From: Sinimarinibacterium arenosum
GTDB taxonomy: Bacteria; Pseudomonadota; Gammaproteobacteria; Nevskiales; Nevskiaceae
Direction of reading: 5' to 3'
Length of the DNA: 64,000 nt
Assembly (NCBI RefSeq): GCF_005047655.1
Contig: NZ_SUKF01000007.1
Coordinates: 124,001-188,000 of the forward strand
Notes under the pieces: generated by a model
The model's input: the letters and a program-made list of their open reading frames with translations, nothing else
The model's database searches: none
What the model was told of the DNA's origin: nothing
Translations under genes and position numbers: made by a program
Part shown: positions 2,109-64,000 of the stretch, piece after piece
How the letters are laid out: each line of letters opens with the position of its first letter
Numbering within the stretch: the stretch's first letter is position 1

Positions 2109-6426
<4,318 letters not shown>

Positions 6427-43628: not shown

Positions 43629-44039
43629 TTAATCGTGGAATTGCTGCAGGTATTCGATGACGTCGGCGCGCTGCTGCGCGTCGAGGGGGAACACAATCAT
43701 CGTGCTGTTGGGCAGGAAGGTATCCATGTGCCCGAGCCAGAAATCCAGCAGCTCCGGTGTCCATACGAATCCGGCCTGCTTCATTTCGTCTGAATAATGT
43801 TCGTAGCCTTCGGCGCTGCCGGCCTTGCGCCCGAACACGGCCCACAGGCTCGGGCCGTTGTGATGGCCGAAGCCTTTTTCGGGGTAGTGGCAGGTGCGGC
43901 ATTGGCCGAACAGAATCTGTCCGCGCGCGGCGTCGCCCTGCGGCATCGGGTCGGTGGCCGGCGCTTCGGCAAAGGCGGTGGCGCTGCTGGCGGCGAGCAG
44001 CACGGCAGAGAACAGTGCGCGCAGGGTCGTGATCTTCAT
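43629..44039 (-). CDS. Monoheme cytochrome c
   Basis: 136 residues: signal peptide (about 1-24), one CRTCH heme site and a distal Met in a class I cytochrome fold (GQILFGQCRTCHYPEKGFGHHNGPSLWAVFGRKAGS). Periplasmic electron carrier. Its ATG overlaps the FAD oxidoreductase stop by four bases, so it is probably the electron acceptor of that periplasmic flavoprotein. Confidence 0.9.
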   Translation of the reverse strand: MKITTLRALFSAVLLAASSATAFAEAPATDPMPQGDAARGQILFGQCRTCHYPEKGFGHHNGPSLWAVFGRKAGSAEGYEHYSDEMKQAGFVWTPELLDFWLGHMDTFLPNSTMIVFPLDAQQRADVIEYLQQFHD

Positions 44040-47519: not shown

Positions 47520-49634
47520 TCAGCCGCCGAACTGTATGGATACGCCGGCGTAGACATTGCGTTCGGGAGCCGGCTCAAAGAAACGGCCGTTGCCGTCGTT
47601 GACGATGACCGAGCCCACATAGTGCTCGTCGAACAGGTTGTAGAGCCGCACGAACACTTCGGTGTGCGCACGCGAACCCTGCCAGCGGTAGGCGCCGCCG
47701 AGATGGACGACTACGTAGTCCGACGCGGCATCGCTGTTGCGATCGTCTACCGGCACCTCATCCGAATAGCGGGCCTCGACGCTGGCTGACCAGCCCGGAC
47801 GCGCACGCCGCCATGCCAGCTCGGAGTACACGCTGCTGCGCGCGACGCCTGGGATGCGGTTGCCGTCGTCGACGGTGACGGTCTCGCCGCCGGCCGGATA
47901 GCTGTAGCTGTCGACGAAGCGCGCGTCGAGCCAGTCGGCCGCGAGCTGCAGCTGCAGCTGTGCCGGCAGCGGCAGGCTGAGGCCGAACTCGGCGCCGCGC
48001 CGGCGGGTGGCGCCGGCATTCTGGAAACTGGCGCGGCCGTCGATGGTGCCGGCGGGCACGATCTCGTCTTCGCCGTCGATCTGGAACAGCGCCAAGGTCA
48101 ACAGTCCGCGCGCGGCGACGGCCTGCTTCCAGCCGAGTTCGACACTGCGGCTGTGCGCAGCGTCGAGTTCCAGATTCAGGCCGCTCTCGCCGTCGCTGCG
48201 GTAGGACAGCTCGTTGAACGTCGGCGTTTCGAAGCCCGCGCCGGCGCTCAGATACAGCAGGCGATCGTCGGCGGGGGCGAAGGCCAGGCTCAGCGCCGGC
48301 ACCGTCGCGGTGTAGTCGGTGCTGCCGCTGTCGTCGGGATTGCCGTCGGTGATGTAGTGATCGTCGGATTCGAAATTGACCTGACTGTGGCGGACCGCGC
48401 CGCTCAGGCTCCAGCGCGGTGCGAACGGATATTCCGCGATCAGGTACTGATCGAAGTTGTCGATGCGGTTGTTCTCGTCGCGCCGCAACGCGCCCTGCAC
48501 GCCGAGGGTATCGCCGATGAAGTTCTCGTAGCCGCGGCGGTGCTCGTCGGTGCTCTGATATTGCAGGCCGGCACGCAGCGACCAGTGCGCAAACCGGTGA
48601 CTGACGCGCGCCTCGCTGCCGTAGCCGCCGCGCTGAAGGTCGATGACGCCACCGGCCCGTGCCGGCGCGGCCTGCACGGACTTGGGAATCGACAGGAACT
48701 GCACGATCGCGCGATCGGTGACGTAGCCGATCAGGTCCAGATCAGTGTCGCCGCCCCAGCGCTGGGTGTATCCGACGCCGCTGCGCCAGTCGTCGATGCG
48801 CTTGCGGGTGTTGTAGGTGTCGGCGGCCGCGGTGGCCTGCTGCGGGTTCTGCTCGAACTGTTCACGGGTCAGGCCGAGCGGGTCCTGCGCGAAGGCATCC
48901 CACAGGCCACTGGCGAGCACGCGCAGTTCACGCCGATCATCAATGGCATACCGTGCATTCAGCGCGGCCTGATTGCGGTGCGAGGCGCTGTGATCGCGAT
49001 AGCCGTTGCTGTCGTAGCGCGCGAAGTCGAGGCGATAGCCCAGCGCGTCGTCAAAGGCGCGGCCGCCGGCGCCCAACGCGGCGCGCCAGGTGTCATAGCT
49101 GCCGGCCCCGAACGCGGCATCGAGTTCGGTGTCCCGCGGTGGCTCTGCGGCGTAGGCCGCGATCACGCCGCCGGCCGCGTTGCCGTACTGGTACGCCATC
49201 GGACCACGCAGCACCTCGATGCGGTCCAGGCTGTTGATCAGCAGATTCGAGGTCTGGCCCTGACCATCCGATGCGGTCAGCGGAATGCCGTCGGCGCGGA
49301 TCTGGATGCCGCGCACGCCGAAGCTGGCGCGGGCTCCATAGCCACGGCTCTGCACCTGCAGGTCCTGCGCATCGTTCTGGCGATCGCGTACGTCGATGCC
49401 GGGAATGCGCGCCAGCGTTTCGGCCAGGTCGATCTGCGGCTGCGCGCTATGCAGCGTGTCCGCGTCGATCACGCCGACCGCGGCTGGTGTCTGCAGTTCG
49501 CTGCGTGGGCTCGGCGACGCCAGCACTTCGACCGGCGGCAGCACGACGGGATTCTCTGTCGACTGAGGTGCGGAGGGTTCGGCCCAGGCCAGGCTGGAGC
49601 AGAGCGTTGCGGTGACGAACAGGCAGAGGCGCAT
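47520..49634 (-). CDS. TonB-dependent outer-membrane receptor
   Basis: 704 residues: signal peptide (about 1-18), TonB-box-like VVLPPVEVLA, plug domain with the RIEVLRGPMAYQYGN block, and barrel ending in IQFGG. FecA/iron-complex or general metal-chelate class; no FRAP/NPDL heme motifs seen. Stop is 21 bp from the convergent DUF1329 stop. The substrate may be a siderophore, metal complex or hydrophobic compound. Confidence 0.9.
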   Translation of the reverse strand: MRLCLFVTATLCSSLAWAEPSAPQSTENPVVLPPVEVLASPSPRSELQTPAAVGVIDADTLHSAQPQIDLAETLARIPGIDVRDRQNDAQDLQVQSRGYGARASFGVRGIQIRADGIPLTASDGQGQTSNLLINSLDRIEVLRGPMAYQYGNAAGGVIAAYAAEPPRDTELDAAFGAGSYDTWRAALGAGGRAFDDALGYRLDFARYDSNGYRDHSASHRNQAALNARYAIDDRRELRVLASGLWDAFAQDPLGLTREQFEQNPQQATAAADTYNTRKRIDDWRSGVGYTQRWGGDTDLDLIGYVTDRAIVQFLSIPKSVQAAPARAGGVIDLQRGGYGSEARVSHRFAHWSLRAGLQYQSTDEHRRGYENFIGDTLGVQGALRRDENNRIDNFDQYLIAEYPFAPRWSLSGAVRHSQVNFESDDHYITDGNPDDSGSTDYTATVPALSLAFAPADDRLLYLSAGAGFETPTFNELSYRSDGESGLNLELDAAHSRSVELGWKQAVAARGLLTLALFQIDGEDEIVPAGTIDGRASFQNAGATRRRGAEFGLSLPLPAQLQLQLAADWLDARFVDSYSYPAGGETVTVDDGNRIPGVARSSVYSELAWRRARPGWSASVEARYSDEVPVDDRNSDAASDYVVVHLGGAYRWQGSRAHTEVFVRLYNLFDEHYVGSVIVNDGNGRFFEPAPERNVYAGVSIQFGG

Positions 49635-50029: not shown

Positions 50030-51067
50030 CTACAGCACGGCGTTGAAAACGTAGCCAACGACGAGGATGCCGCTGGCGACGACGGCGATGAAGGTCGCGA
50101 TCAGGCGCGGCTTCAGCACCTTGCGCAGGATCACCATCTCCGGCAAGGACAGTGCGATCACGCTCATCATGAACGCCAGCGCGGTGCCGAGCGCCGCGCC
50201 CTTGGCGAGCAGGGCCTGCACGATCGGAATCACGCCGGCGGCATTGGTGTACATCGGGATGCCCATCAGCACCGCCAGCGGCACCGACCACCAGCGATCC
50301 GCGCCCATGATCGAGGCCATGAAGTCCTGCGGCACGTAGCCATGAATCGCGGCGCCGATGGCAATGCCGGCGACGATGTAAGGCCACACGCGTCCGACCA
50401 CATCACGCACGTTGTTGATGCCGGCCTCGATGCGATCCTGCAGATGCACGGTGCCGTCGTCCGACAGCACCTGTGCCGGCGGCAGTTCGCGCACCCAGTC
50501 CTCGAGATAGGCTTCAAGGCGCAGGCGGCCGATGATCCAGCCGGCGACGATGGCGATCGTCAGGCCCAGGCTCAGATACAGCAGCGCGATCTTCCAGCCG
50601 AACAGTGCCAGCAGCAGCGTCAGTGCGACCTCGTTGACCATCGGTGCGGCGATCAGGAACGAGAAGGTCACGCCCAGCGGCACGCCGGCCTGGACGAAAC
50701 CGATGAACAGCGGCACCGCCGAGCAGGAACAAAACGGCGTGACCACGCCGAGACTGGCCGCCATCACATTGGCTACACCGGCGGCGCGTCCGGCCAGCAG
50801 CGCCCGTGTGCGTTCCGGTGTGAAGTAGCTGTTGACCATGCCCATCACGAAGACGATGCCGGTCAGCAGCAGCAGCACCTTGGGCGTGTCGTAGAAAAAG
50901 AACTGCAAGGCGCTGCCCAGATGGCTGTCGCGCGCCACCGGCAGCAGTGCCACCAGCGCTTCGGACGCCGGAATCAAGGTCCGGTACAGCGCCAGCCACA
51001 GCGCGGCACCGAGAATCAGCAGAAGCTGCGGGTGTTCGCGGGTCCAGCGGTGGGCGAGTGCGGTCAT
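50030..51067 (-). CDS. SO_0444/ArsP-like permease
   Basis: 345-residue membrane protein with eight or so helices and the family signature TPFCSCSAVPLF plus MGIPMYTNAAGVIP. Related permeases export organoarsenicals or other metal(loid)s, but specificity varies. Start at 51067 begins the MTALAHRW segment; longer starts lack support. Transcribed with the CxxC protein and close to the ars operon, so arsenic-related export is a reasonable inference. Confidence 0.87.
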   Translation of the reverse strand: MTALAHRWTREHPQLLLILGAALWLALYRTLIPASEALVALLPVARDSHLGSALQFFFYDTPKVLLLLTGIVFVMGMVNSYFTPERTRALLAGRAAGVANVMAASLGVVTPFCSCSAVPLFIGFVQAGVPLGVTFSFLIAAPMVNEVALTLLLALFGWKIALLYLSLGLTIAIVAGWIIGRLRLEAYLEDWVRELPPAQVLSDDGTVHLQDRIEAGINNVRDVVGRVWPYIVAGIAIGAAIHGYVPQDFMASIMGADRWWSVPLAVLMGIPMYTNAAGVIPIVQALLAKGAALGTALAFMMSVIALSLPEMVILRKVLKPRLIATFIAVVASGILVVGYVFNAVL

Positions 51068-51295
51068 GGGTGAGATCAAGGTGCGAACCTCAACGCTAAA
51101 TGTTCGCCGCCGCGGCTCCAATGATCTGCATCAAGGGCATGAACCCGCCTGGCGGTGGGCCTGATCGTCCGGGATTCATGCCCGATCGTTTGCATTCATC
51201 GTTTTGCGCTTGTACTGCGGTCGCGGCTTGGCAAGGATGAATGCCCGTGTATCCGGAGCCGATGATGCCGTTCACCAGGGTTGTCCGACGTTCCC

Positions 51296-51884: not shown

Positions 51885-52736
51885 TCAGGCGTTCAGGAAC
51901 ACCGGCTGCTCGTCCGCGGGCTTTCCGGCCAGCTGCTCCGGCGTCAGGCGCGCGTAGATCTCGACCAGATTGCCGTCCGGATCGCTCAGCCACAGCTCGT
52001 GCAGCGGCGTGCCCTTCCAGGTCGTGCGCGGCGGCTTCTCGATGGCGGCTCCGAAGGCCTGTGCGCGGCGTGCGGCATCGACCACCGCGTCACGGCTGCC
52101 GACATCGATGCCCAGGTGATACAGCGTGTCGTGATGCAGGGTCTTGCCGTCGGCGACGACGACGACGAAGTTTAGCTTCAGGTCCGGACGGATGAACGTG
52201 GCGTAGCGATGCGTCCATTCCTTCGGCCAGCTGTTCAGCAGCCAGGCATAGAAGCGCACCGCGCGCGGCAGGTCGGAGACGCGCACGCTGGCGTGAAACT
52301 CCTGCGCGTCCGGGCCCGGCGGCGTGTCGAGCAGCGCAGCGAGCACGCGGATGCGTTCGCGGATCTGGTCGCGTGCGGTGCGGAACGCCGCGAGCGCCGC
52401 GTCGACGTCGACGCTGGCATCCACGGCCGCCGGATCGGCGATCGGCCAGTGCAGGCGCCGCACCGGGCCGGGCAATACCGGGCAGACCTCGTCGGCGCAC
52501 AGCGTGATGACCCAGTCGAAGGCGCCGGCATCGAAGTCGGCGACCGACTTCGACTGATGCCGCGCGATGTCGATGCCGATGTCCTGCATCACGCGGATCG
52601 CCAGCGGGTTGACCCGCGTCGGTTGCGAGCCGGCGCTGGCGACTTCGGCCCGATCGCCCAGGATGTCGCGCGCCAGGCCTTCGGCCATCTGGCTGCGGGC
52701 GGAGTTGGCGACGCACAGGAACAGGATCTTGCTCAT
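51885..52736 (-). CDS. ArsC-type arsenate reductase fused to a glyoxalase/VOC domain
   Basis: 283-residue fusion. N-terminal LMW-phosphatase/ArsC domain (about 1-140) with catalytic Cys8 and CX5R loop (CVANSAR); C-terminal VOC/glyoxalase domain (about 145-270) with likely metal ligands His in EFHASV, His in LYHLGI and Glu in LVEIYA, similar to CadI/ArsI. The Cys pair of ArsI is absent, so carbon-arsenic cleavage as in ArsI is doubtful. Last gene of the ars operon. Confidence 0.88.
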
Positions 52737-52740
52737 GGGT

Positions 52741-53478
52741 TCAGCGGGTGTGCACGGTGGTGGCGGATTGGGCCGCGGCTTCGCGGCGTTCCGAGTATCG
52801 GTCGGTCAGTTGCGCGACATGCGGGCGCGTCAGCACGGTGAAGCGCACCAGCTCTTCCATCACGTCGACGATGCGGTCGTAGTAGCTGGACGGCTTCATG
52901 CGGCCGTCGGCGTCGAATTCCTGATAGGCCTTGGCGACACTGGACTGGTTGGGGATCGTGAACATGCGCATCCAGCGTCCGAGCAGGCGCAGCGTGTTCA
53001 CCGCATTGAATGACTGCGAGCCGCCGGAGACCTGCATCACCGCCAAGGTGCGCCCCTGGGTCGGTCGGACCGAGCCCATGCTCAGCGGCAGATGGTCGAT
53101 CTGCGCCTTCATCAGGCCGGTGATCTGGCCGTGGCGCTCGGGACTGCACCAGACCTGGCCCTCGGACCACAGCGACAGCTCGCGCAGCTCGCGCACGGCC
53201 GGATGATCGTCGCCGGCGACCTGATCCGGCAACGGCAGGTCGGCGGGATCGAAGATGCGCGGCTCGGCGCCGAAGTGGCGCAGAAGGCGCGCCGCTTCCT
53301 CGACCGCGAAGCGCGAATAGGAGCGCTCGCGCAGCGAGCCGTACAGCAGCAGGATGCGCGGCGGATGCGTGAGGCCGCCGTGATCGAGACCGAGTGCGGG
53401 GCGGGCGATGACCTGCTTCAGGTCCAGGGCCGGCAGCGTGTCGGGATCCGGCAGGGGCCGCAGACGTGTGATGCTCAT
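52741..53478 (-). CDS. arsH: ArsH NADPH-dependent FMN reductase
   Basis: 245 residues with the flavodoxin-like FMN motif [13 protein letters not shown] and the ArsH blocks [23 protein letters not shown] and [15 protein letters not shown]. Oxidises trivalent organoarsenicals or reduces quinones/metals. The ATG at 53478 overlaps the ACR3 stop by four bases. Normal length for ArsH. Confidence 0.93.
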
Positions 53479-54506
53479 GCGCGCAGTCCGCGTTCGTACC
53501 AGGGCTTGCTGGCATTGACGATCTTCACGACCGACAGCATCACCGGAACTTCGATCAGCACGCCGACCACGGTGGCCAGCGCAGCGCCGGAATTGAAACC
53601 GAACAGGCTGATCGCGGCGGCGACGGCGAGCTCGAAGAAGTTGCTCGCGCCGATCAGTGCCGACGGACCGGCGACACAGTGGGCTTCGCCGGTGGCGCGG
53701 TTCAGCAGATAGGCCAGACCGGAATTGAAATAGACCTGGATCAGGATCGGCACCGCGAGCAGGCCGATCACCATCGGCTGCTGCAGGATCTGCTGACCCT
53801 GGAAGCCGAACAGCAGGACCAGCGTCGCCAGCAGTGCGATCAGTGATGTGGGTTGCAGGACTTGCAGCACGCGAGTGATCGCCGCATCGCCGCCGCGGCG
53901 CAGCAGACTGCGGCGCAGCAGCTGTGCGGCGATCACCGGCACCACGATGTAGAGCACGACCGACAGCAGCAGCGTGCCCCAGGGCACGGTGATCGCGGAC
54001 AGGCCCAGCAGCAGTCCGACGATCGGGGCGAACGCGAACACCATGATGGTGTCGTTGAGCGCGACCTGGCTCAGCGTGAAATGCGGCTCGCCCTTGGTCA
54101 GATTGCTCCAGACGAACACCATCGCCGTGCACGGTGCGGCCGCCAGCAGGATCAGGCCGGCGATGTAGGACTGGATCTGTTCCGGCGGCAGCCACGGCCG
54201 GAACAGATGGCCGATGAACAGCCAGCCCAGCGCCGCCATCGAGAACGGCTTTACCGCCCAGTTGATGAACAGCGTCACGCCGATGCCGCGCCAGTGCTCG
54301 CGCACCCGGCTCAGCGCGGCGAAATCGATCTTGATCAGCATCGGGATGATCATCAGCCAGATCAGCGCGGCGACGGGCAGATTCACTTTCGCGATTTCGG
54401 CCGCACCGATGGTCTGGAACACGCCGGGCAGCCAGTGCCCCAGCGCGATACCGACGACGATGCACAGGCCGACCCACACGGTCAGATAACGTTCGAAGAT
54501 GGACAT
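53475..54506 (-). CDS. acr3: ACR3-family arsenite efflux permease
   Basis: 343-residue inner-membrane exporter with about ten helices and the ACR3 Cys in [10 protein letters not shown], plus [14 protein letters not shown] and [17 protein letters not shown] signatures. Exports arsenite. Between arsC (58 bp upstream) and arsH (4-bp overlap). Confidence 0.95.
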
Positions 54507-54564
54507 GCGGATCAGGGATTCAGAACGGGGGTGTCACGGAGGCGGCAGGCCGCGGGGTATGGGT

Positions 54565-55062
54565 TCACTGCTTGCCGATGTCGGAAACCTGCTGTTGCAG
54601 CGCGAGGCGATCGAGCTTGTCCATCGGCAGGCTGGCGAACAGCTCGATGCGACGGCGCAGCACCATCAGCGCGTCGGAAAACGCCTTGCGCTGCGCCTCC
54701 TCGCTGCCCTCGACCGCCGCGGGATCGGGCACGCCCCAGTGCGCGGTCATCGGCTGGCCAGGCCAGAACGGACACTGCTCGCCAGCGGCCTGATCGCAGA
54801 CGGTGAAGACGAAGTCCATCACCGGTGCGTCGGGCGTCGCGAACTCGTCCCAGCTCTTGCTGCGCAGGCCTTCGGTCGAGAGGCGGCTGCGTGATAGCAG
54901 CTCGAGCGCGAGCGGATGCACCTCGCCCTTGGGATGGCTGCCGGCGCTGAATGCCCGGAACTTGCCGGCGCTGATCGCCAGATGGTTCATCAGGGCTTCG
55001 GCCAGGATCGAGCGCGCCGAATTGCCGGTGCACAGGAACAGCACGTTGTAAGGGTGTTGCAT
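54565..55062 (-). CDS. arsC: Arsenate reductase, LMW-phosphatase type
   Basis: 165 residues. Catalytic loop LFLCTGNSARS with Cys11 and Arg17, and further Cys in VCDQAAGEQCPFWPG. Converts arsenate to arsenite for export by ACR3. Directly downstream of arsR (1 bp between). The operon thus has two ArsC-type domains, this one and the fused one. Confidence 0.93.
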   Translation of the reverse strand: MQHPYNVLFLCTGNSARSILAEALMNHLAISAGKFRAFSAGSHPKGEVHPLALELLSRSRLSTEGLRSKSWDEFATPDAPVMDFVFTVCDQAAGEQCPFWPGQPMTAHWGVPDPAAVEGSEEAQRKAFSDALMVLRRRIELFASLPMDKLDRLALQQQVSDIGKQ

Positions 55063-55063
55063 G

Positions 55064-55396
55064 TCAGCACTCCGTGGATGCTGCAGGCGATGCGCAGTCG
55101 ACTTCGCACTCGCCGCCGTCGCAGCAGTTTTCGGTGAGATAGCCGAGCAGGGCGTTCATCGCCTTGAAGTCCGGCGCGTAGTAGATGAAGCGGCCCTGCT
55201 GGCGCGCCTTCAGCAGGCCAGCGGTGCTCAGTTCTTTCAGGTGAAACGACAGTGTTGCCGGCGCCAGCTTGAGCCGGGCCTGGATGTCACCGGCGCACAG
55301 GCCGTCGGGGCCGGTCTGGACCAGCAGCCGGAACACCGCCAGCCGTGTTTCCTGCGCCAGTGCGGCGAGTCGCATGACTGCTGTTTGAGATTTCAT
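55064..55396 (-). CDS. arsR: ArsR/SmtB family repressor
   Basis: 110-residue winged-helix repressor (LKLAPATLSFHLKELSTAGLLKARQQGRFIYY). C-terminal Cys cluster NCCDGGECEVDC is a plausible As(III) site and differs from the N-terminal CVC type. First gene of the ars operon; the palindrome at 55395-55418 overlaps its start codon, so it probably represses itself and the operon. The ATG at 55396 replaces a longer frame through the operator. Confidence 0.93.
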   Translation of the reverse strand: MKSQTAVMRLAALAQETRLAVFRLLVQTGPDGLCAGDIQARLKLAPATLSFHLKELSTAGLLKARQQGRFIYYAPDFKAMNALLGYLTENCCDGGECEVDCASPAASTEC

Positions 55397-55418
55397 ATTT
55401 CCAAAATAATGGAAATAT
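55395..55418. promoter_or_regulatory. ArsR operator
   Basis: Perfect inverted arms ATATTTCC (55395-55402) and GGAAATAT (55411-55418) with an 8-bp AT-rich spacer, AT-rich unlike its surroundings. It overlaps the first two bases of the arsR start codon, so binding would block both transcription and the ribosome start. Confidence 0.75.
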
Positions 55419-55469
55419 ATTGCAGCCACAAGTCAGCGCTTAAAGTTCGGGACTCTCGGTCACGCAGGT

Positions 55470-56444
55470 CTACGGAATCAGGATGGTCGAACCGGTGGTC
55501 CTGCGCGCTTCCAGGTCACGATGCGCCTGGGCAACGTCGCTCAGCGCGTAGCGCTGGCGCACGTCGATGCGGACCTGGCCGCTGCCGACGACCTCGAACA
55601 GCTCCGCGGCCATCGCTTCGAGATCGGCGCGCAGCTCGATGTAGTGCATCAGCGACGGCCGCGTGATGTACAGCGAACCGCGGCGCGTCAGCTCGGTCAG
55701 TGCGAACGGCGGCACCGGGCCCGAGGCGTTGCCAAAGGACACCATCAGGCCGAAGCGCGCGAGGCTGTCCAGCGAGCTTTCAAAGGTGTCCTTGCCGACG
55801 CCGTCGTAGACCACGGGCACGCCACGACCCTCGGTCAGCTCGCGCACGCGCGCGGCGACGTTCTCGTGCCGATAGTTGATGACGTGATCACAGCCGTGTG
55901 CTTTCGCCAGCGCGGCCTTGTCCTCCGACCCCACCGTGCCGATGACCGTCGCGCCCAGCGCCTTGGCCCACTGGCAGACGATCAGGCCGACGCCGCCGGC
56001 AGCGGCGTGAAACAGCAGTGTGTCCCCGGGCTGCACGCGGTAGGTGCGGCGCAGCAGATACTGCGCAGTCAGGCCCTGCAGCATCATGGCTGCAGCGGTG
56101 TCGAAGGTGATGCGGCGCGGCAGCCGGACCACGGTCGAAGCCGGCAAGTTGCGCGCGGTGGCATAGGCGCCCAGCGGTCCCCAGCCGTAGGCGACGCGGT
56201 CGCCAACCTGCAGGTCGGTCACGCCCGCACCGACCGCTTCGATGGTACCGGCGGCTTCGAGCCCGAGGCGGCCAGGCAGCGGCTGCGGATACAGGCCGCT
56301 GCGGTAATAGACGTCGATGAAGTTGAGCCCGCAGGCTGCGTGTCTGACCTGGACCTCACCAGGGCCGGGTGCGCCCAGTTCAAGCGCGACGAATTCGATC
56401 ACCTCCGGGCCGCCGGTCTCATTAATGCGAGCAACGCGTTCCAT
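55470..56444 (-). CDS. Zinc-independent NADPH:quinone reductase
   Basis: 324-residue QOR-type MDR protein with the GLNFIDVYYRSGLYP N-domain signature and NADPH motif AAAGGVGL. Reduces quinones or other electrophiles. ATG at 56444 preferred to a GTG one codon earlier. About 100 bp downstream of the NapC gene on the same strand. Confidence 0.92.
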   Translation of the reverse strand: MERVARINETGGPEVIEFVALELGAPGPGEVQVRHAACGLNFIDVYYRSGLYPQPLPGRLGLEAAGTIEAVGAGVTDLQVGDRVAYGWGPLGAYATARNLPASTVVRLPRRITFDTAAAMMLQGLTAQYLLRRTYRVQPGDTLLFHAAAGGVGLIVCQWAKALGATVIGTVGSEDKAALAKAHGCDHVINYRHENVAARVRELTEGRGVPVVYDGVGKDTFESSLDSLARFGLMVSFGNASGPVPPFALTELTRRGSLYITRPSLMHYIELRADLEAMAAELFEVVGSGQVRIDVRQRYALSDVAQAHRDLEARRTTGSTILIP

Positions 56445-56547
56445 CACAACAATCCCTTGGCGACATCACGCCATGCATGTACACCTACGGAGCATAGCGG
56501 CTGGCGTCGGTGTCGTTTGAGCGAGTCTGGATCAACTGAACGGGGCG

Positions 56548-57180
56548 TCAGTCGGAATCAGGCACCGTCGAGTCGAGCGCAACATCCGGCAGGTGATGGG
56601 CGATGCCCTTGTGACAGTCGATGCAGGTCTTGCCCTGCTCGCGCCAGACTTCCAACGCATGTTTCTTGCGCGCACTCTTGTCCTGTGCGGCAAGATCCAT
56701 GTGCTCCTGCGAGTGGCAGCTGCGGCACTCGCGCGAGTCGTTCTGCTTCATCTCATCCCAGACGTCCTGCGCCATCCGCGCGCGATGGGCTTCAAACTTT
56801 TCAGCGGTGTCGAGCTCTCCGAGGATGTGCTGGGGCACTTCAACGAGTGTTGCCCGAATCTTGCGCACGATTTTTGGACCCCAAGGATGCGGCTCGTGGC
56901 AGTCCGCGCAGGTTGCGCGTACGCCGGTGCGATTATTGTAGTGACTGGTCTCCTGGTATTCGGCATAGACGTTGTCCTTCATCTCGTGACAGGACAGACA
57001 CATGCCCTCATTGCTGCTCAATTCCACTGCGCTGACGAAGCCGATAACGCTGACCATGCCCGCAGCAAATGCGATGAAAGCCCCGAGGGGGATGCCCAGC
57101 ATCCAGCGCCTGCGCGGTGCCCGCCACAGACGAGCCCAGCGGCCGGCTGTGGCGCGATCAGGTTTGGGCGCATCGCTCAC
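56548..57180 (-). CDS. NapC/NirT-family tetraheme quinol dehydrogenase
   Basis: 210 residues: one N-terminal membrane helix (about 27-50) and four CxxCH heme sites (CLSCHE, CADCH, CRSCH, CIDCHKG). Takes electrons from the quinol pool to periplasmic partners, the role of CymA/NapC. Its start overlaps the diheme cytochrome stop by four bases, at the end of the mtrCAB operon, so it likely feeds that conduit. Confidence 0.93.
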   Translation of the reverse strand: MSDAPKPDRATAGRWARLWRAPRRRWMLGIPLGAFIAFAAGMVSVIGFVSAVELSSNEGMCLSCHEMKDNVYAEYQETSHYNNRTGVRATCADCHEPHPWGPKIVRKIRATLVEVPQHILGELDTAEKFEAHRARMAQDVWDEMKQNDSRECRSCHSQEHMDLAAQDKSARKKHALEVWREQGKTCIDCHKGIAHHLPDVALDSTVPDSD

Positions 57181-57800
57181 TGGAAGCTGCCATAGAACTG
57201 CAGCAGCGCGTTGCGATCGTCTGCACTCAATTCATCGATCTTGGGTTTCATCTTCTTGGGCGGTGTCCGCGTGCCCTCTGCGTATTCCTTGAGGCTTGCC
57301 TCCAGGTACGGCATCCACTGGCCGGCGAGAATGCCTGAGTCGTCGTCCTTCGAGCTGCCACCATCGGCGTGGCATTTCTCGCAGTGCAGCTCATGCACTT
57401 TCTTGCCGATCGCGACCTGTGCCGGGTCCACCGTCTGCTTGGCGCGGACAAATGGCAGCGCGGAAAAATGTGCGGCGACCTCGGTCAGCTCAGCGCCCGA
57501 CATGGACTTGGCGATCTTGCACATGTCGGTCGCCGGGCGGCTGGTATCCCCGCAGCGGTACTTGGATTCCGCGCACGGTCGTTCGCCGTCGCGATACTCC
57601 TCCATTGTCGAAACTAGATAGTCGTTCGAAAGCCCGGCAATGATTGGAACGTCGGATTCGGTGCTGGCGCCGTCCTTGCCGTGGCAGTCGGCACAGCTGT
57701 CGATCAAAGGTGATGCTGCGGTTGCTGCGGCCGAAGTCATCAGCGCCGCGAAGGCCAGTGTCCGAAGTGTCGGTGCGGTGAGAACAAGTTTCGATGGCAT
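57177..57800 (-). CDS. Diheme cytochrome c (c4-like)
   Basis: 207 residues with signal peptide (about 1-30) and two heme sites (CADCH and CEKCH) in two class I-type domains. Soluble periplasmic carrier. ATG at 57800 has a GAGG eight bases upstream; the other in-frame ATG at 57809 is too close. Placed between mtrB and the NapC gene, it probably shuttles electrons from NapC to the MtrA end of the conduit. Confidence 0.9.
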   Translation of the reverse strand: MPSKLVLTAPTLRTLAFAALMTSAAATAASPLIDSCADCHGKDGASTESDVPIIAGLSNDYLVSTMEEYRDGERPCAESKYRCGDTSRPATDMCKIAKSMSGAELTEVAAHFSALPFVRAKQTVDPAQVAIGKKVHELHCEKCHADGGSSKDDDSGILAGQWMPYLEASLKEYAEGTRTPPKKMKPKIDELSADDRNALLQFYGSFQ

Positions 57801-57894
57801 GGCGCACATCCTCGTTTTATGCGGCTGGACCGAGATCAGGCCACGCCGCGTGCTGTGTTCAGAGCTGGTGGACAGGTCTGTCGGTCACGGAAAA

Positions 57895-60030
57895 CTATCT
57901 GAATTCATAGCGGGTCGAAATGCCGATCAGATTGGCGGTGTAGCTCGGTGACGAAGCGTCGAGCGAGAGCAAATTGTGAACCGCATCAGCGGAGACGCCG
58001 TCGAGCGCCCAATCGGCCTGGTGGTAAAGCGCGTAGCGGTACTCAACACGGATGCCCAGCTGCGGCGTGGCCTGAAACAGCGCATACATCCGTGCTTCGT
58101 GCCGGCGCGTGCGCAGGTCGGGGAACGGTGTGTTGGCGGAGCCCGTCAGAAGGCGGGTGTCACCCCGGCTTGAAGTGTATTCGTAGGACGCACCGGCGTC
58201 GTAACGACCCCAGAGTTTGCGGCGCTCCGCGCGCAGGCCGGCGACGGTCGCAGCGTCGCGGTTGTCTGCGCGCCAGTCGGCGAAGTCCGCTGCGCTTTGA
58301 TTACCGTCCTGCAGGGTCTCCAGCGCGTCCCGGGACCAGAACCCGGTGACGCCGAACAGCTCTGATGGATGTAGTGACAGATCGACGCCGTATCCTTGCG
58401 CGCGTCGACGCTGCAATCCCACGGTGGTGTCCGGGTAGTGGTCGCGACCCAGGCTGCCGTTCACATCAACACTGATCCAATCCAGCGGCGTAGTGCTGAT
58501 GTTCAGCGTCGCTGCGTCGCGCACGCGGTCGGCCAGATGGGCTTGCTGCAGCTGTTGTTCGCTCACAGCGTCAGTGGCCGTGATCCGATAGGTCGAGCCC
58601 GTGCGGCTGGCGTGCACGTAGCCGATGTTCGTACTCAGCCGTTGTGCCGGCTGAACGCGCATGCGAGTCCATAGTTTCCACTCATCAGTCCGGTGGCGTG
58701 CCTGGAAGCTGCGGGTCTTGCGCTCCTGATCCCATCCGGCCGAAAGGCGGGCCCAGCGCTGGAGCCGATAATCGCTGCCGAGCTTCAGTGTCCGGCGAGT
58801 AAAGTCGTAGGGCTGGTTGGCGCGCTCATCGGCAGCAAAGACATCCGTGATGATCTGCGTGTATGCAGATTGCGGAGTTCGATTGTCGCGGTCGTCGAGC
58901 GCGGCTTCGGCGTTGAAGCGCAGACCCGCCCACGGGCCAGCGCTGGCGCGCAGGCGACCGGACAGCGTGTCGATCTGGCCGTCGAGCGCGGTACGCGGCA
59001 ATGGCGTCATCAGGCTTGGCGTCGCTGATGCGGGAACGAAGCGTGCGTTCTGCAGCATGCGCCCAACCGCAACGTGCGTCGAGAGCCGAACTCGTGCCTC
59101 CGGCTGATAGCCCGCGGTTACGCTGAGCTGATGAAACTGATTGTCCGGCGCCAACGCCAGACGCCCGGAAACGCCGTCATCGACCAACGGATCGTAGGGG
59201 TTCTGCCAGGTCAGAGCGGTGTTGTCATTGCGGTAGAACGATCCGTAGTACGCGGCGCCGGCTTGCCAGTTTGTGCCGGTCACGCCGGCCGACAGGTCGA
59301 CCTGATCGGTCTGGTCACTGGTTGGTTGCGGTAGCAGACTGGCAAGTGTGATGAAGCTGCCGCCGACGGGCTTGATGCCATCGCGCTCATCGTGACGCAC
59401 GCTCAACTGGGTGGTCCAGTGCGCGGACGGGATCAGATTGAATGCAGCGAGGAAGCGCTTGCGGTCCTGCGCCAGTGTGAGTGGCTGCAGACTGCTGGCG
59501 AGATCCGGCATTTGCTGTGTCGATGTCGCGCTGGTCCACGTCACGGGAAGCGAAAGTGTGTCGCTGCCGACGCCCAGAAACGGAGTGCTGGCGGTGTCGT
59601 TGATGCGCCTCGGTACCGAGTCATAACTCAGGCGGATGCCGAACAGGCCCTGCTGACCGCCGCGCAGTTCGACTGCGCGCGCATCCAGCCCAAGGTCACG
59701 TGCTTCAAGATCCCAGTAGCCAGTGCCATCGGCTTCGCGCCAGCCGATGCTGGCGCCCCCCAGCAGAAACAGACCCTGATCGCTGAGACCGGTGTAATCG
59801 CCGAAGTGGTAGGCGTCATCGAACAGGTAGCCCAGACCAAGGTCAAGCTGCCCGGAGAATCCCTGCTCGAACGGGCACTGCTTGCAGGGCGGGACGAGTG
59901 GAGTCGCTTCCTCTGGGGTATCCGCCGCCGCCGTTCCTGCGAATAGCGTTGCGGAGGCGGTGATGACGCGCAGAACCGTCCGCGCAGTGCGGATGCATCG
60001 CAAGCTGAACGTGTCGGGATGGCGGATCAT
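57895..60030 (-). CDS. mtrB: MtrB/PioB-family outer-membrane beta-barrel
   Basis: 711 residues with signal peptide (about 1-36), an N-terminal CKQC motif as in MtrB, and a long beta-barrel ending STRYEFR. It forms the porin sheath around MtrA across the outer membrane. The ATG at 60030 begins the signal peptide; the longer frame runs over the mtrA end. Follows mtrA after 5 bp. Confidence 0.92.
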   Translation of the reverse strand: MIRHPDTFSLRCIRTARTVLRVITASATLFAGTAAADTPEEATPLVPPCKQCPFEQGFSGQLDLGLGYLFDDAYHFGDYTGLSDQGLFLLGGASIGWREADGTGYWDLEARDLGLDARAVELRGGQQGLFGIRLSYDSVPRRINDTASTPFLGVGSDTLSLPVTWTSATSTQQMPDLASSLQPLTLAQDRKRFLAAFNLIPSAHWTTQLSVRHDERDGIKPVGGSFITLASLLPQPTSDQTDQVDLSAGVTGTNWQAGAAYYGSFYRNDNTALTWQNPYDPLVDDGVSGRLALAPDNQFHQLSVTAGYQPEARVRLSTHVAVGRMLQNARFVPASATPSLMTPLPRTALDGQIDTLSGRLRASAGPWAGLRFNAEAALDDRDNRTPQSAYTQIITDVFAADERANQPYDFTRRTLKLGSDYRLQRWARLSAGWDQERKTRSFQARHRTDEWKLWTRMRVQPAQRLSTNIGYVHASRTGSTYRITATDAVSEQQLQQAHLADRVRDAATLNISTTPLDWISVDVNGSLGRDHYPDTTVGLQRRRAQGYGVDLSLHPSELFGVTGFWSRDALETLQDGNQSAADFADWRADNRDAATVAGLRAERRKLWGRYDAGASYEYTSSRGDTRLLTGSANTPFPDLRTRRHEARMYALFQATPQLGIRVEYRYALYHQADWALDGVSADAVHNLLSLDASSPSYTANLIGISTRYEFR

Positions 60031-60035
60031 GGCGG

Positions 60036-61013
60036 TCACCGGGTGAGCGTTGCTCCGGAGGGATGGTTTGTTCCATGGACCTGCGAATGGCAGTTCCCGC
60101 AACTCTGGCCCAACAGAAATGCGGACGCCGTGGTGCCCGCGAGTCCGCGGCCGGTGTACGCCACACTGGGATGGCCCTCAGCCGCATGACAGCTCTGACA
60201 CAACCACGGTGGGCGCTGCACCAGCAGTGCAGCCTGGTTTGAGCCGTGCGGCGCATGGCACAGGCCGCAGTCCTCCGATGCCGGCGCGTGCTCCCACAGG
60301 AAGGGCCCGCGCTTTTCGGCGTGGCAGCGATAGCAGGTCTGATTGACGGTCGGGCTTGCGAGCAATGCTTCGCCCGGCGCGCCATGCACTGCGTGGCAGT
60401 CGGAACATGCCAGCTTGCCCTGGTTTACCGGATGCGCTGAGGGGCGCATCAATTCCGCCCGTTCCTTGCGGTGGCAGGAATAGCAGACTTCAGGCTGCGA
60501 CGCGGTGGTCATGACCGGGTCCCGCGGCGCGTGGACCTGGTGACAGGCCGCGCAGGGAACATCGGCCCGATCGTGCGCGCTTCCCGGCCACTGCGTGCGA
60601 TGCCCGCCCTGGTGGCATGCCATGCAGGTAGCGTTCTGCTCGGCGACAGGGGTGTCCTTGCCGATGCCAAAATTGCGGATCGGCGGAACCGGGTCCTTGT
60701 TGCCACCACGCGCATGCGTGTCGCCGGCGCCATGGCAGGCTTCACACTGGTGACCGGCAAACGGCGTGCGTGAATCGGCGGCACGCGCGTGCGCGGTTTT
60801 GAAGATCGACAGCACCGGCACCGCGGTGTCCTCGTCATGGCACTTCAGGCAGGTATCAGCGCCTTTGGCCGTGAAGGCAGGAGCCGAAGCGGCCTCGGCC
60901 GGTGCCTCCGCAGTTTGGGATTCTGTTTCTGCGTGCGCCGGACCTGCCAGCAGCACTGCGGCCGCAGCCATCAACGCCGCTACGATCCAGTGCCTCAATT
61001 GAGGACGGCTCAT
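60036..61013 (-). CDS. mtrA: MtrA/DmsE-family decaheme cytochrome c
   Basis: 325 residues with signal peptide (about 1-28) and exactly ten CxxCH heme sites, the MtrA/DmsE count. Carries electrons from the periplasm through the MtrB barrel. Its start overlaps the mtrC stop by four bases. Confidence 0.95.
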   Translation of the reverse strand: MSRPQLRHWIVAALMAAAAVLLAGPAHAETESQTAEAPAEAASAPAFTAKGADTCLKCHDEDTAVPVLSIFKTAHARAADSRTPFAGHQCEACHGAGDTHARGGNKDPVPPIRNFGIGKDTPVAEQNATCMACHQGGHRTQWPGSAHDRADVPCAACHQVHAPRDPVMTTASQPEVCYSCHRKERAELMRPSAHPVNQGKLACSDCHAVHGAPGEALLASPTVNQTCYRCHAEKRGPFLWEHAPASEDCGLCHAPHGSNQAALLVQRPPWLCQSCHAAEGHPSVAYTGRGLAGTTASAFLLGQSCGNCHSQVHGTNHPSGATLTR

Positions 61014-63184
61014 TGTGTAACGTGGTGAACGGCGGCGACGTCCGCAATCCTGCCGGCAGCGTGGCAGACCTCGCAGGTCTCGGTGATGCTGCCGTTGTCC
61101 ACCATCGACTGCGGGGTGCCGAACGAAGCGCCATTCTGTTCCATATGGGCCTGAGCGGTTTCACCGTCATGACACGACGAACACGCCGCTGCGGTCGCGG
61201 TGATATTGGTATCGTCATTCGGGTCGGCCACACTGCCGCCGCTGTCCGCCGTCGTCGCCAGGACTGTGGACGCCAGCGGGGGCATGTAGCTGCTGCCGCT
61301 GTGGCAGGTGGTGCAGTTACTGACGATGCCAGGGAACTCGACCTCGCCGAAATCATTGGCGTTGTTGCCGAAGCCATAGATGACCACGCCCTTCTCGCGG
61401 AATCCGGCGCCATGGATCGCATGGATCATGACCTTCATGTCCACCGTTTCCTCCCGCTTGCCATCAAGGGCAAGCGATGCCGACGAGGGTCGGCGGCCAA
61501 TGTCGGTGTTATTCGCGTTGTGGCACATCACGCACAGTTGCGGCTCATCAGTACGTGACCCGCCGTGAATCGTCAGCTGGTCGTGGCATTGATCGCATTT
61601 GGCAATATCAACCACCTGACGCCGAGCGACTGCCTTGGTGTCCGTGATTGGGGCAAAGCTGACGACGCTCTTGATCGGTACCCGGTCGCTGTAGACACCA
61701 TCGCCGTCCACATCGGCTGCCGCGCGTCCGTACAGTCCGATCGCGGCACTGCCGGTGGCGGTCTTGGGAATCGCGCTGGTTGAGGTCACTGTAAAGGTCC
61801 CGCTGCCGCTCGCAGTGGCCAGTGTCTTGGCATTGAGTGATATTGCCGACGCAGGAGTCGTCGAACTGCCGTTGCCGGTGTTGTGATAGTCGCTTGTATC
61901 CCAGCCGAAAAGCAGCGACAGCGACGCGCTTGACGAGGTCCATTCCGGGTCGTTCAGCAGATCGTAGGGGGCGTCACTGTGGGTCGGATCAGTGACCGAC
62001 AGCTTTACAATCGGGAACTGGCCCGGTGCGGTCTTGCTGACCGAAAGGATGTTGAGTTGATAGCGCTGTGAGGCTTCGCGAAGCGGATTGCGATGCGATT
62101 CGGTCACGCTGCCGGCAAGACCGCCCTCGCTGTGACAGACGCTGCATTCTCCGTTGGCAGCAACGACGCTATCCTCGCCGTGGCCTTCGCCGGTTTCGAA
62201 GTTGACGTTATCGTGGCAAGCGCCACAGGCTTCGCGCGTCGGCTGCGTGCTCCACCGGCTGGCCTGCGGCGTGCCGGAATCTGCAGCATCGTGGCACTTG
62301 CTGCAGTTGCGGATGTCTTGCGGGTAAGCGACGGTCGAATAGTCGTGCTTTGAATCCCGGAAACCCCAGATCGCGTATTCACCGCCAGCTTCCACGCTGG
62401 GTAGATTTTCGCCGCGATGAATCTTGTGGACCATCACCTTGAAGTCGATCGTGTTGCCGCTATTGGCATCGTGCGATCCTGGGTTATGACAGGTAACGCA
62501 GTACTGGGTATCGAGGCGACCGCCCCCGTGCAGCGCGAGCTTGCCGTGGCATTCGTTGCACGAAGCGGTCTGCACGATGTCGTTGTTGAGAATGTCGCTG
62601 GTCGCGCCATCGGACGGCCGCCAGGTGTACGTTGCATTAGCCGCTGGCAGCGTCGTGCTGCTGACTTGCAGACCGATCCGATGCGTCAATGCCGGTTCGT
62701 AAGCAACCGCAAGCGGCGCCGCGATCGCAGTGACATCGCTGCCAAAGGTATAGGTGTAGGTGCCATTGCCATGATCCACCAGCGAGCCGCCGCTGTCGGT
62801 GGTCGCCTGAATCTGATCCTGTGTTCCGGGTCCCACACTGCCAGCAACTTCGATCCGGTTGATGTAGCTCTGCCAGGCATCCGAGTTGCCGTCTGTCCCG
62901 GGGATCAATTTGGCCAGCGTCATGCGAGCGCCGTCGAGGCGCACGACCGGAACGTCACGTTCATTGACCACACTGAACTCGACCACCGGCTTGCTGGCGA
63001 TGCTGACGCCGGTAATCGTCACTTTTAGCGCGGTTGCCTCGGTGGTGACTCCGGGGCCTGGAGGGCCGGCCGTACCCGGTGCGCCATCGTTGCCGCCGTC
63101 GCAGGCAGCGAGGCTACCCAATAACCCCAGCGCGACGACAACGGAGAAGACTGCCCGTGCGATAACTCGCCAGATCGAACTCAT
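61010..63184 (-). CDS. mtrC: OmcA/MtrC-family decaheme surface lipoprotein
   Basis: 724 residues: lipoprotein signal (LAAC), a Gly/Pro-rich linker (GAPGTAGPPGPG), and ten CxxCH sites in two clusters of five separated by beta domains, the OmcA/MtrC layout. Terminal reductase on the cell surface for metals, humics, flavins or electrodes. GGAGGAGATAAGGACC precedes the ATG. First gene of the operon, with an FNR-type box upstream. Confidence 0.94.
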   Translation of the reverse strand: MSSIWRVIARAVFSVVVALGLLGSLAACDGGNDGAPGTAGPPGPGVTTEATALKVTITGVSIASKPVVEFSVVNERDVPVVRLDGARMTLAKLIPGTDGNSDAWQSYINRIEVAGSVGPGTQDQIQATTDSGGSLVDHGNGTYTYTFGSDVTAIAAPLAVAYEPALTHRIGLQVSSTTLPAANATYTWRPSDGATSDILNNDIVQTASCNECHGKLALHGGGRLDTQYCVTCHNPGSHDANSGNTIDFKVMVHKIHRGENLPSVEAGGEYAIWGFRDSKHDYSTVAYPQDIRNCSKCHDAADSGTPQASRWSTQPTREACGACHDNVNFETGEGHGEDSVVAANGECSVCHSEGGLAGSVTESHRNPLREASQRYQLNILSVSKTAPGQFPIVKLSVTDPTHSDAPYDLLNDPEWTSSSASLSLLFGWDTSDYHNTGNGSSTTPASAISLNAKTLATASGSGTFTVTSTSAIPKTATGSAAIGLYGRAAADVDGDGVYSDRVPIKSVVSFAPITDTKAVARRQVVDIAKCDQCHDQLTIHGGSRTDEPQLCVMCHNANNTDIGRRPSSASLALDGKREETVDMKVMIHAIHGAGFREKGVVIYGFGNNANDFGEVEFPGIVSNCTTCHSGSSYMPPLASTVLATTADSGGSVADPNDDTNITATAAACSSCHDGETAQAHMEQNGASFGTPQSMVDNGSITETCEVCHAAGRIADVAAVHHVTQ

Positions 63185-63489
63185 GGTCCTTATCTCCTCC
63201 AGCAGTACAGCCTGGTTTTTTTATGAGACTGACACTACCACGAAGTGGGCGCCGAGGATTGATCTGAATCAGCTCAAGCGAATCCGGATGGAGTTGTATC
63301 GGAGGGTGTCGACCGTATTTCGCGGTCATGAATTCGCGGCTTCAGGTGCCCTGTTCCTGGCCGTTGCAGTGCTCAAGGATGCCCAGGTTCGCCTGAATGG
63401 AAAGAGGCAGGCGCAGCGCGCTACCTGCCCCGACGGATTTGGCCTCGGTGAGGGATGTGCGTTCAAGACGCGGGAAGTTCGCTCTTGAG
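63185..63489. other. Promoter region of the mtr operon
   Basis: About 300 bp between the acylase-gene stop and the mtrC start, both on the minus strand. It carries the FNR-type box at 63259-63272 and a TAGTGT hexamer (minus strand, 63232-63237) as possible -10. Nothing else is recognised. Confidence 0.65.
63259..63272 (-). promoter_or_regulatory. FNR-type box upstream of mtrC
   Basis: Reads TTGATCTGAATCAG on the plus strand, matching TTGAT-N4-ATCAA at nine of ten positions. Its centre is about 81 bp before the mtrC start, nearly the same distance as the nirS box, and a TAGTGT hexamer lies at a class II -10 position. Suggests oxygen-limited expression of the conduit. Confidence 0.65.
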
Positions 63490-64000
63490 CTATTCAGAAA
63501 GGCTGAGCGTCGACGTCACGTTCGGCGCGATCTCCGATTCGCAGTAGCGCGCCGGCACCCAGCCGCTGTTCGAGTACAGATGGGTCTGGTCAGCGAAATG
63601 CGGCGAGTCGGGATTGGCGCTTTGCGAGTAGGTCAGGATCGTGCGCGCATCCGGGCAGTCATCGCCGTCGAAGCTCACGACCTCGATGAAGCTCGAGCCA
63701 TGCACAATGTCCGGATAGCCGGTGCCGGCGACCCACGGCGCGGTGATCGCGTTGAACACGCCAAGCAGGCCGGGGCCGCCATGGATCGGGATCGCCTCGT
63801 CGCCACGCGCCTCGGTCTGCGCCACGCGCATCGTCGCATCCAGCGGCAGATTCGCGGCCTGCAGATCGGCGATCACGCTGCCGAGTGCATATTCGACGTG
63901 CGGGTTCGCAGTGTTCAATCCGGCCGGCGTATGCACCGGATCGTTGACGTCGAACGGCACGGTCCAGACATCCACGAACGCGGCATACCCTGCCGAGCTG
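63490..64000 (-). CDS. Penicillin-acylase-family protein, C-terminal end
   Basis: The visible 169 residues are the end of an Ntn-hydrolase acylase beta chain, with the family blocks IHGGPGLLGVFNAI, HGSSFIEVVSF and ILTYSQSANPDSPHFADQT. The frame stays open to the window edge, so the catalytic Ser and start lie outside. Family members hydrolyse amides such as acyl-homoserine lactones, aculeacin or penicillins. Confidence 0.85.
   Translation of the reverse strand, partial: SSAGYAAFVDVWTVPFDVNDPVHTPAGLNTANPHVEYALGSVIADLQAANLPLDATMRVAQTEARGDEAIPIHGGPGLLGVFNAITAPWVAGTGYPDIVHGSSFIEVVSFDGDDCPDARTILTYSQSANPDSPHFADQTHLYSNSGWVPARYCESEIAPNVTSTLSLSE

Follow-up and report, generated by a model that had tools for sequence, protein, structure and literature searches.

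A 64,000-nucleotide stretch of the Sinimarinibacterium arenosum genome (the window) carries, at positions 56548-63184, five co-directional minus-strand genes that open reading frame (ORF) and motif scans identify as mtrC, mtrA, mtrB, a diheme cytochrome gene, and a gene for a NapC-type tetraheme protein. The three adjacent mtr genes encode MtrCAB, since family models, solved structures, two predicted folds, and trees concur. For the cluster as a whole, we think it fairly probable that it specifies an anoxia-induced, sporadically acquired MtrCAB conduit, which has its own PdsA-like shuttle and NapC-type feeder, is linked to ubiquinone, and carries electrons outward. The less expected element is a combination: there is no detectable menaquinone pathway, the NapC-type feeder has a heme I methionine, and FNR-type sites occur in part of the group to which the cluster belongs. 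The features are as follows.

63259-63272, minus strand: FNR/Anr-type box CTGATTCAGATCAA, one mismatch, ~75 bp upstream of mtrC
61010-63184, minus strand: mtrC, 724 amino acids (aa), 10 CxxCH, candidate lipobox LAAC at Cys28
60036-61013, minus strand: mtrA, 325 aa, 10 CxxCH, decaheme periplasmic cytochrome
57895-60030, minus strand: mtrB, 711 aa from ATG 60030, CxxC (CKQC) at residues 49-52, no CxxCH, outer-membrane beta-barrel sheath
57177-57809, minus strand: pdsA-like gene, diheme periplasmic cytochrome, 210 aa, 2 CxxCH
56548-57180, minus strand: NapC/NirT-type tetraheme membrane protein, presumed quinol dehydrogenase, 210 aa, 4 CxxCH

Gene content and protein families of the cluster

The ORF coordinates agree with the arrangement given in a preliminary description of this DNA, with 4-bp overlaps between mtrC and mtrA and between the diheme and NapC-type genes and a 5-bp gap between mtrA and mtrB; a further 85 bp separate mtrB from the diheme gene. 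The 5-bp gap is obtained with ATG 60030, the likely start of mtrB, and the ORF finder also returned an alternative longer frame from TTG 60102. The heme counts of 10, 10, 2, and 4 and the CxxC of MtrB, claimed in the same description, were reproduced by a motif scan, and since no residue shuffle contained more than two CxxCH motifs in any of the five proteins (2000 shuffles per protein), the counts are not due to chance. All five frames are intact, and all 26 CxxCH motifs and the CxxC of MtrB are present. Since the cluster (C22:180548-187184, on a 346-kb contig) and ubiA (C22:209839) sit on one contig, a contaminating stray contig is unlikely; the genome itself is 99% complete. The GC content at third codon positions (GC3) of the five genes is 0.72-0.74, inside the spread of 47 other window genes (mean 0.787, standard deviation 0.078), and no compositional sign of transfer was seen for the cluster.

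We found that MtrC, MtrA, and MtrB each exceed the cut-off of their NCBIfam model and match sequences of solved structures, in keeping with the identities first given to them. MtrC scores 578.5 bits with TIGR03507 (cut-off, 209.3), has the Pfam MtrC/MtrF domains of the decaheme OmcA/MtrC family, and matches MtrF (3pmq), OmcA (4lmh), and MtrC by phmmer. Its AlphaFold model (predicted local distance difference test [pLDDT], 80.1; predicted template modeling [pTM] score, 0.72) was built, like that of MtrB, from alignments of the window protein with its relatives, and in Foldseek its best full-length matches were OmcA, MtrC, UndA, and MtrF, at moderate template modeling (TM) scores of 0.56-0.64 by query length. 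Across 26 aligned rows the ten heme motifs are invariant or nearly so, and Cys28 of the lipobox, which was picked by eye, is nearly invariant, making MtrC a candidate surface lipoprotein.

MtrA scores 289 bits with TIGR03508 (cut-off, 192.2) and 307.5 bits with chain A of 6r2q, an entry titled "Structure of the Mtr complex" in whose file that chain bears an unrelated molecule name. For MtrB, TIGR03509 gives 447 bits (cut-off, 240; the longer TTG frame was scanned), PF11854 is present, and chain B of 6r2q is matched by sequence with 292.1 bits. The MtrB model (pLDDT, 79.6; pTM, 0.73) aligns with 6r2q_B at TM scores of 0.85/0.93 and has 26 strands of at least 9 residues, counted by eye; the MtrB barrel of the known Mtr complex has 26 strands. 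Cysteines C49 and C52 of the CxxC are invariant in all 23 aligned rows. Structure prediction, proposed beforehand as a check and applied to MtrC and MtrB singly, returned an OmcA/MtrC-type fold and a 6r2q_B-type barrel, and the three proteins would be expected to assemble into an MtrA-MtrB-MtrC complex.

The other two genes had been described as a NapC-type membrane feeder and a diheme shuttle belonging to the cluster itself, a description that we keep in terms of protein family. The tetraheme protein matches PF03264 with 211 bits (cut-off, 24.1), has four CxxCH motifs and an N-terminal membrane anchor seen by eye, and found no match among solved-structure sequences. Its heme I motif is CLSCHEM (CxxCHxM), and heme I Met67 occurs in 30 of 32 aligned NapC-type proteins (28 of 32 when the first motif alone is read), with a lysine at position 107 in 29 of 32; the first heme motif of the Photobacterium homologue, CYGCHVG, is without the methionine. 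This CXXCHXM methionine is reported in a 2026 paper from NrfH, some NapC proteins, and ImoA of Sideroxydans ES-1 and as absent in CymA (PMC13390432). Since the methionine is present in the window protein, "NapC-type" fits it better than CymA. Among solved sequences, the diheme protein comes closest to the cytochrome subunit of flavocytochrome c sulfide dehydrogenase, and it is a PdsA homologue with the usual neighbors of PdsA rather than a certified PdsA. Among 43 aligned rows of PdsA-like proteins, Met96 occurs in 38 and Met187 in 42, and both may be heme ligands. Methionine ligands are a mark of higher-potential hemes.

Quinone markers and FNR-type sites

To assess the quinone pool, we relied on MenD and MqnA/D alone to mark menaquinone and on UbiA alone to mark ubiquinone. 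MenD was over its cut-off in none of 14 records, namely, 11 genus genomes with the host included, two other carriers in the family, and a Photobacterium plasmid record, which is uninformative on its chromosome. The MqnA/D family was over its cut-off in none of the 13 genomes (11 from the genus and the two family carriers), and the CcmF/NrfE family was present in all 13. We then extended the count to 55 genomes with a related MtrA, comprising 6 genomes with G handles and those of 49 of 80 named loci, picked mainly for mtrC, pdsA, or cymA on the locus with 31 loci left out; since G417 and the genome of L026 are apparently one genome, 54 are distinct. Of the 55, 5 had MenD and 52 had UbiA over cut-off, whereas MqnA/D gave one weak match and nothing over cut-off. 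Absences count for less in the 49 named-locus genomes, for which completeness figures are lacking and which include small ones of as little as 1.3 Mb. For loci with all five genes, MenD occurred in 1 of 11 named loci and in 1 of 13 when the window and G014 are added, and Marinobacter orientalis W62 (L048) and M. azerbaijanicus TBZ242 (L042) have all five genes and no menaquinone marker over cut-off.

By these markers, the host seems to have ubiquinone genes and to be without menaquinone genes, like most of the checked relatives with such a conduit. Ubiquinol, at +90 mV against -75 mV for menaquinol, is the weaker reductant (PMC6195509), and Baker et al. 2022 treat menaquinone genes in the recipient as a condition for a transferred cluster to work (PMC8805035). 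In a limited search of the open-licence literature, an Mtr-type system without menaquinone was pointed out only for ES-1, whose system is without MtrC (PMC13390432). Since no menaquinone marker exceeds its cut-off in the host, a simple Shewanella-like picture of Fe(III) reduction is uncertain. The apparent lack of menaquinone markers, the FNR-type site upstream of mtrC, and the patchiness of the cluster in genus and family were all missing from the preliminary description.

The pattern TTGAT-N4-ATCAA, which we take to be the FNR/Anr site consensus, matched the window four times with at most one mismatch, compared to 0.69 expected (1 of 100 shuffles had as many), and 30 times with up to two mismatches, compared to 10.6 expected in shuffles. 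Besides the box upstream of mtrC, one match (2064-2077) lies at nearly the same distance from a NirS-like gene as the mtrC box does from mtrC, and of the remaining two, one precedes the gene at 37591 by 57 bp and one falls where the gene at 50030-51121 starts. Among the 35 loci with enough sequence upstream of mtrC, a box fell within -350 to +100 of mtrC in 11, including both other family carriers (L010 and L047), compared to 38 of 1263 equal-size background windows from the same loci; the binomial P of 4e-9 for this enrichment holds if loci are independent, which related loci are not. Judging from these sites, an FNR/Anr-type regulator probably activates the mtrC promoter when oxygen is low. 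No sigma-70 promoter was found in 56300-63600, where shuffles predict 1.3, and terminator-like matches there were not in excess (6 vs 5.3 expected).

The NirS-like gene (2151-4238, plus strand) encodes a cytochrome d1 protein with N-terminal cytochrome c domains and two CxxCH motifs. It is followed by a TonB-dependent receptor of the heme/transferrin type (4225-6426, just below cut-offs), with no obvious nir gene there.

Distribution, descent, and relation to known systems

Of the 61 relatives searched, 3 had MtrC over its cut-off; all 3 belong to the family (37 genomes, genus included), 1 of them to the genus (11 genomes), and the 24 genomes from the rest of the order had none. In a sample of 369 genomes from the class, 10 had MtrC and 25 an MtrA-like protein over cut-off. 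MtrC-like matches below cut-off, present in 4 more of the 61 relatives and 36 of the 369 class genomes, were not counted as carriers. A plasmid collection gave one MtrA match, that in Photobacterium. The quinone reductase gene neighboring the cluster has a match in 8 of 10 other genus genomes (62-69% identity), and the other genes of the host that were tested had no match in the 19-20 kb around it in eight genus relatives (tblastn, >40% identity, >50% coverage), so that no clean empty insertion site was recognizable.

A scan based on an MtrA alignment turned up 356 stretches encoding such a protein. The 80 best of them, which are all named loci, were retained, and gene order was read in these together with G014, the Photobacterium plasmid, and the window (83 records). 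Genes for mtrC, mtrA, and pdsA shared one stretch in 27 records (26 with a stricter pdsA threshold), and pdsA was divergent and upstream of mtrC in 21 of the 27; excluding L049, with its doubtful pdsA (66 bits, 4 hemes), leaves 26 stretches, 21 of them divergent. Among the 27, the order mtrC-mtrA-mtrB-pdsA-napC on one strand was found in the window and L063 only. Since many stretches are short or truncated, gene absences in them mean little.

In the MtrA tree (102 rows), the window belongs to a 64-row group with support of 85, in which 48 rows have MtrC (the MtrC-minus labels in this tree include truncated contigs and a single PDB chain). The group stands apart from a pair formed by S. baltica and Photobacterium and from L183, the sole sequence with a molybdoenzyme neighbor, and Thioalkalivibrio lies in the window's wider MtrA group. 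A concatenated MtrCAB tree (40 rows) places the window in a 15-row clade (Shimodaira-Hasegawa-like approximate likelihood ratio test, 100) with loci from Marinobacter, Ectothiorhodospiraceae, Thiohalomonas, and Woeseiaceae, and its exact place is unstable between this tree and a separate 15-row analysis. A single clade of the three family carriers was rejected by an approximately unbiased (AU) test (p-AU 0.007), which covered 15 rows under a simpler model, was made after the first tree had been seen, and took the taxonomic family as the tested group. Since the one-clade hypothesis was rejected, the window cluster was probably acquired separately from those of the other two family carriers.

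The cluster is a patchily distributed member of an already described kind of MtrCAB. Baker et al. 2022 report mtrCAB in 148 species, with pdsA and cymA among the passenger genes; they report pdsA throughout Group 2 and in the majority of Group 3 Gammaproteobacteria, and from these groups only (PMC8805035). The preliminary description called such a conduit unexpected, which is at odds with this published occurrence in Gammaproteobacteria and with the 356 MtrA stretches. That surprise is justified in part, and what stands out is the apparent lack of menaquinone genes. The window shares its five components and sporadic distribution with the clusters of Groups 2 and 3, and Group 3 lists Marinobacter, found in the window's MtrCAB clade, and Thioalkalivibrio, found in its wider MtrA group (PMC8805035). 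On the other hand, Ectothiorhodospiraceae are listed in Group 7 (PMC8805035), yet they sit in the same MtrCAB clade; for this reason, and since our trees were built from sequences other than those of Baker et al., a group number for the window would be tentative. The window also differs from these clusters in that pdsA and napC follow mtrB on the same strand, whereas relatives mostly have a divergent pdsA upstream of mtrC, and in that menaquinone genes are held necessary there, while none exceeds its cut-off in the host.

The Shewanella system, MtrCAB with CymA, FccA, and CctA, has the MtrA, MtrB, and MtrC families and the MtrB and MtrC folds in common with the window. Unlike Shewanella, the window encodes the shuttle and the quinol dehydrogenase inside the cluster, its quinol dehydrogenase has the heme I methionine reported absent in CymA (PMC13390432), and its host has no menaquinone marker over cut-off. 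Regulation also differs, with an FNR-type box upstream of the window mtrC and dependence of omcA and mtrC on CRP in S. oneidensis (PMC4417206). The Vibrionaceae mtrCAB/pdsA/cymA cluster on the Photobacterium sp. DA100 plasmid (L009) matches all five genes by similarity (21-42% identity), whereas pdsA-cymA is divergent there and its MtrA pairs with S. baltica rather than the window. MtoAB-ImoA of Sideroxydans ES-1 includes a NapC/NirT tetraheme protein with a CXXCHXM heme I, as in the window, and its host is reported to be without menaquinone genes (PMC13390432), like the window's host by markers. In contrast to the window, which has MtrC and a PdsA-like protein, ES-1 has MtrAB homologues without MtrC according to Baker et al. 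(PMC8805035).

Three further arrangements were seen among the loci read. Three tandem MtrC-like genes stand upstream of mtrA in L058, L059, and L072 (two Betaproteobacteria metagenome-assembled genomes and isolate MnB_17). Proteins that combine PKD domains with multiple class I cytochrome c domains (4-7 CxxCH; L172:10409-12103, L179:3190-5412, and L189:3354-5435) are encoded close to some mtrAB(-pdsA-cymA) clusters that have no MtrC match on the stretch read, and they are a possible alternative surface partner of MtrAB. A molybdopterin oxidoreductase gene (L183:11424-14510) lies near an mtrA-mtrB pair in a DmsEF-like arrangement.

Proposed electron path and its alternatives

In the path that we propose, ubiquinol would pass electrons to the NapC-type tetraheme protein, which would reduce the PdsA-like diheme protein; from there, electrons would enter MtrA inside the MtrB barrel and leave through MtrC on the surface to an extracellular acceptor. 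Acceptors would be of high potential, such as Mn(IV), chelated Fe(III), humics, or a poised electrode, since ubiquinol is a weaker reductant than menaquinol. Partner order, ubiquinone use, direction, and acceptor class are all inferred. Outward flow is favored over the reverse, since the FNR-type sites argue for anoxic use, and the apparent menaquinone lack would imply either high-potential acceptors or inward flow as proposed for ES-1.

Several observations weigh against this path. Both feeders score below the cut-offs of their best NCBIfam models (NF049874, PdsA, 161.4 bits with a cut-off of 330; TIGR02161, the best family of the NapC-type protein, 229 bits with a cut-off of 310.6), so that they are relatives rather than certified orthologues. 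CymA of Shewanella is reportedly menaquinone-specific, going by the title of work by McMillan from 2012. E. coli NapC is thought to take menaquinol, with ubiquinol going to NapGH/NapH (PMC6195509, PMC11108179), and since CymA and this NapC are both linked to menaquinol, ubiquinol use by the window's protein is not self-evident. MenD-like matches below cut-off occur in all 14 records (best, 88 bits; cut-off, 244), which we read as other thiamine-diphosphate enzymes, and five of the 55 genomes with a related MtrA (G298 and the genomes of L016, L021, L081, and L084) carry MenD over cut-off. No box within one mismatch was found at 24 of the 35 mtrC loci. By the account of Baker et al., extracellular electron transfer was experimentally validated for no member of Group 3 (PMC8805035).

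The strongest alternative, unlikely in our view and still to be reckoned with, is that the conduit works inward, with MtrCAB oxidizing extracellular Fe(II), Mn(II), or a cathode and the feeders reducing ubiquinone or supplying periplasmic oxidases or a cytochrome cd1 nitrite reductase. ES-1 offers a parallel that counts against the outward path, since it is reportedly without menaquinone genes and its NapC/NirT protein, ImoA, has been put forward as a reductant of the quinone pool, and the window protein and ImoA have in common the heme I methionine that CymA reportedly lacks (PMC13390432). The NirS-like gene of the window, which likewise has an FNR-type box, and the two methionine positions kept by PdsA-like proteins, possible heme ligands, also suit an inward conduit. 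On the other side, the FNR-type sites suit anaerobic use, and Baker et al. count PdsA and CymA among the functionally characterized proteins of the MtrCAB pathway (PMC8805035). A much poorer explanation is that the cluster is a recent acquisition or in decay and goes unused; its patchiness (1 of 11 genus genomes) and flanks not common to the eight genus relatives read would fit, whereas the five intact frames, the retained heme and CxxC motifs, the tight spacing, the FNR-type site, and GC3 values within the window's spread speak against it. A DmsEF-type extracellular reductase, in which MtrA and MtrB would serve a surface molybdoenzyme, is hardly credible and was rejected on gene content and the MtrA tree, in agreement with the phylogeny check proposed beforehand: the NCBI name of TIGR03508 is "DmsE family decaheme c-type cytochrome," whereas the cluster has a full mtrC, a scan of its five genes and of two genes flanking it revealed no molybdoenzyme, and MtrA does not group with L183, the one weak reference, a single long branch.

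Beyond the window, we suggest more tentatively, at a little under even chances, that the ubiquinone-linked path represents a widespread ubiquinone-run Mtr pathway, in which a NapC-type protein with a heme I methionine replaces CymA and passes electrons to a PdsA-like diheme protein, often under FNR-type oxygen control. If so, such pathways would be limited to high-potential acceptors or operate near equilibrium in both directions, and they would occupy a niche unlike that of Shewanella. If these systems are menaquinone-independent, they would offer hosts that have ubiquinone only a portable module complete with feeder and shuttle, and equating mtrCAB with iron reduction on the model of Shewanella, as has been done for sediment Woeseiaceae (PMC12175321), may get the acceptor or the direction wrong. 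Named strains, such as the Marinobacter strains W62 and TBZ242, now permit a direct test of the quinone that drives MtrCAB in organisms other than Shewanella, Vibrio, and Aeromonas.

Upstream of mtrC, on the same strand and 305 bp away, lies a penicillin amidase/PvdQ-like acylase gene (L012:6490-8937, minus strand); for its in-window part (169 aa), matches in the ten other genus genomes do not exceed 37% identity. Just downstream, the quinone reductase gene (55470-56447) sits between the cluster and an arsenic-resistance block (51885-55429, minus strand), in which an ACR3 efflux pump (53475-54506) is over its cut-off and phosphatase-type and ArsR-like ORFs were named by eye. Farther off are a monoheme cytochrome c gene overlapping a gene for an FAD-binding protein (43629-45589, minus strand), the latter more weakly resembling flavocytochrome c and ketosteroid dehydrogenases, and a TonB-dependent receptor resembling PqqU (47520-49634, minus strand; 646.8 bits, below the cut-off of 1200).

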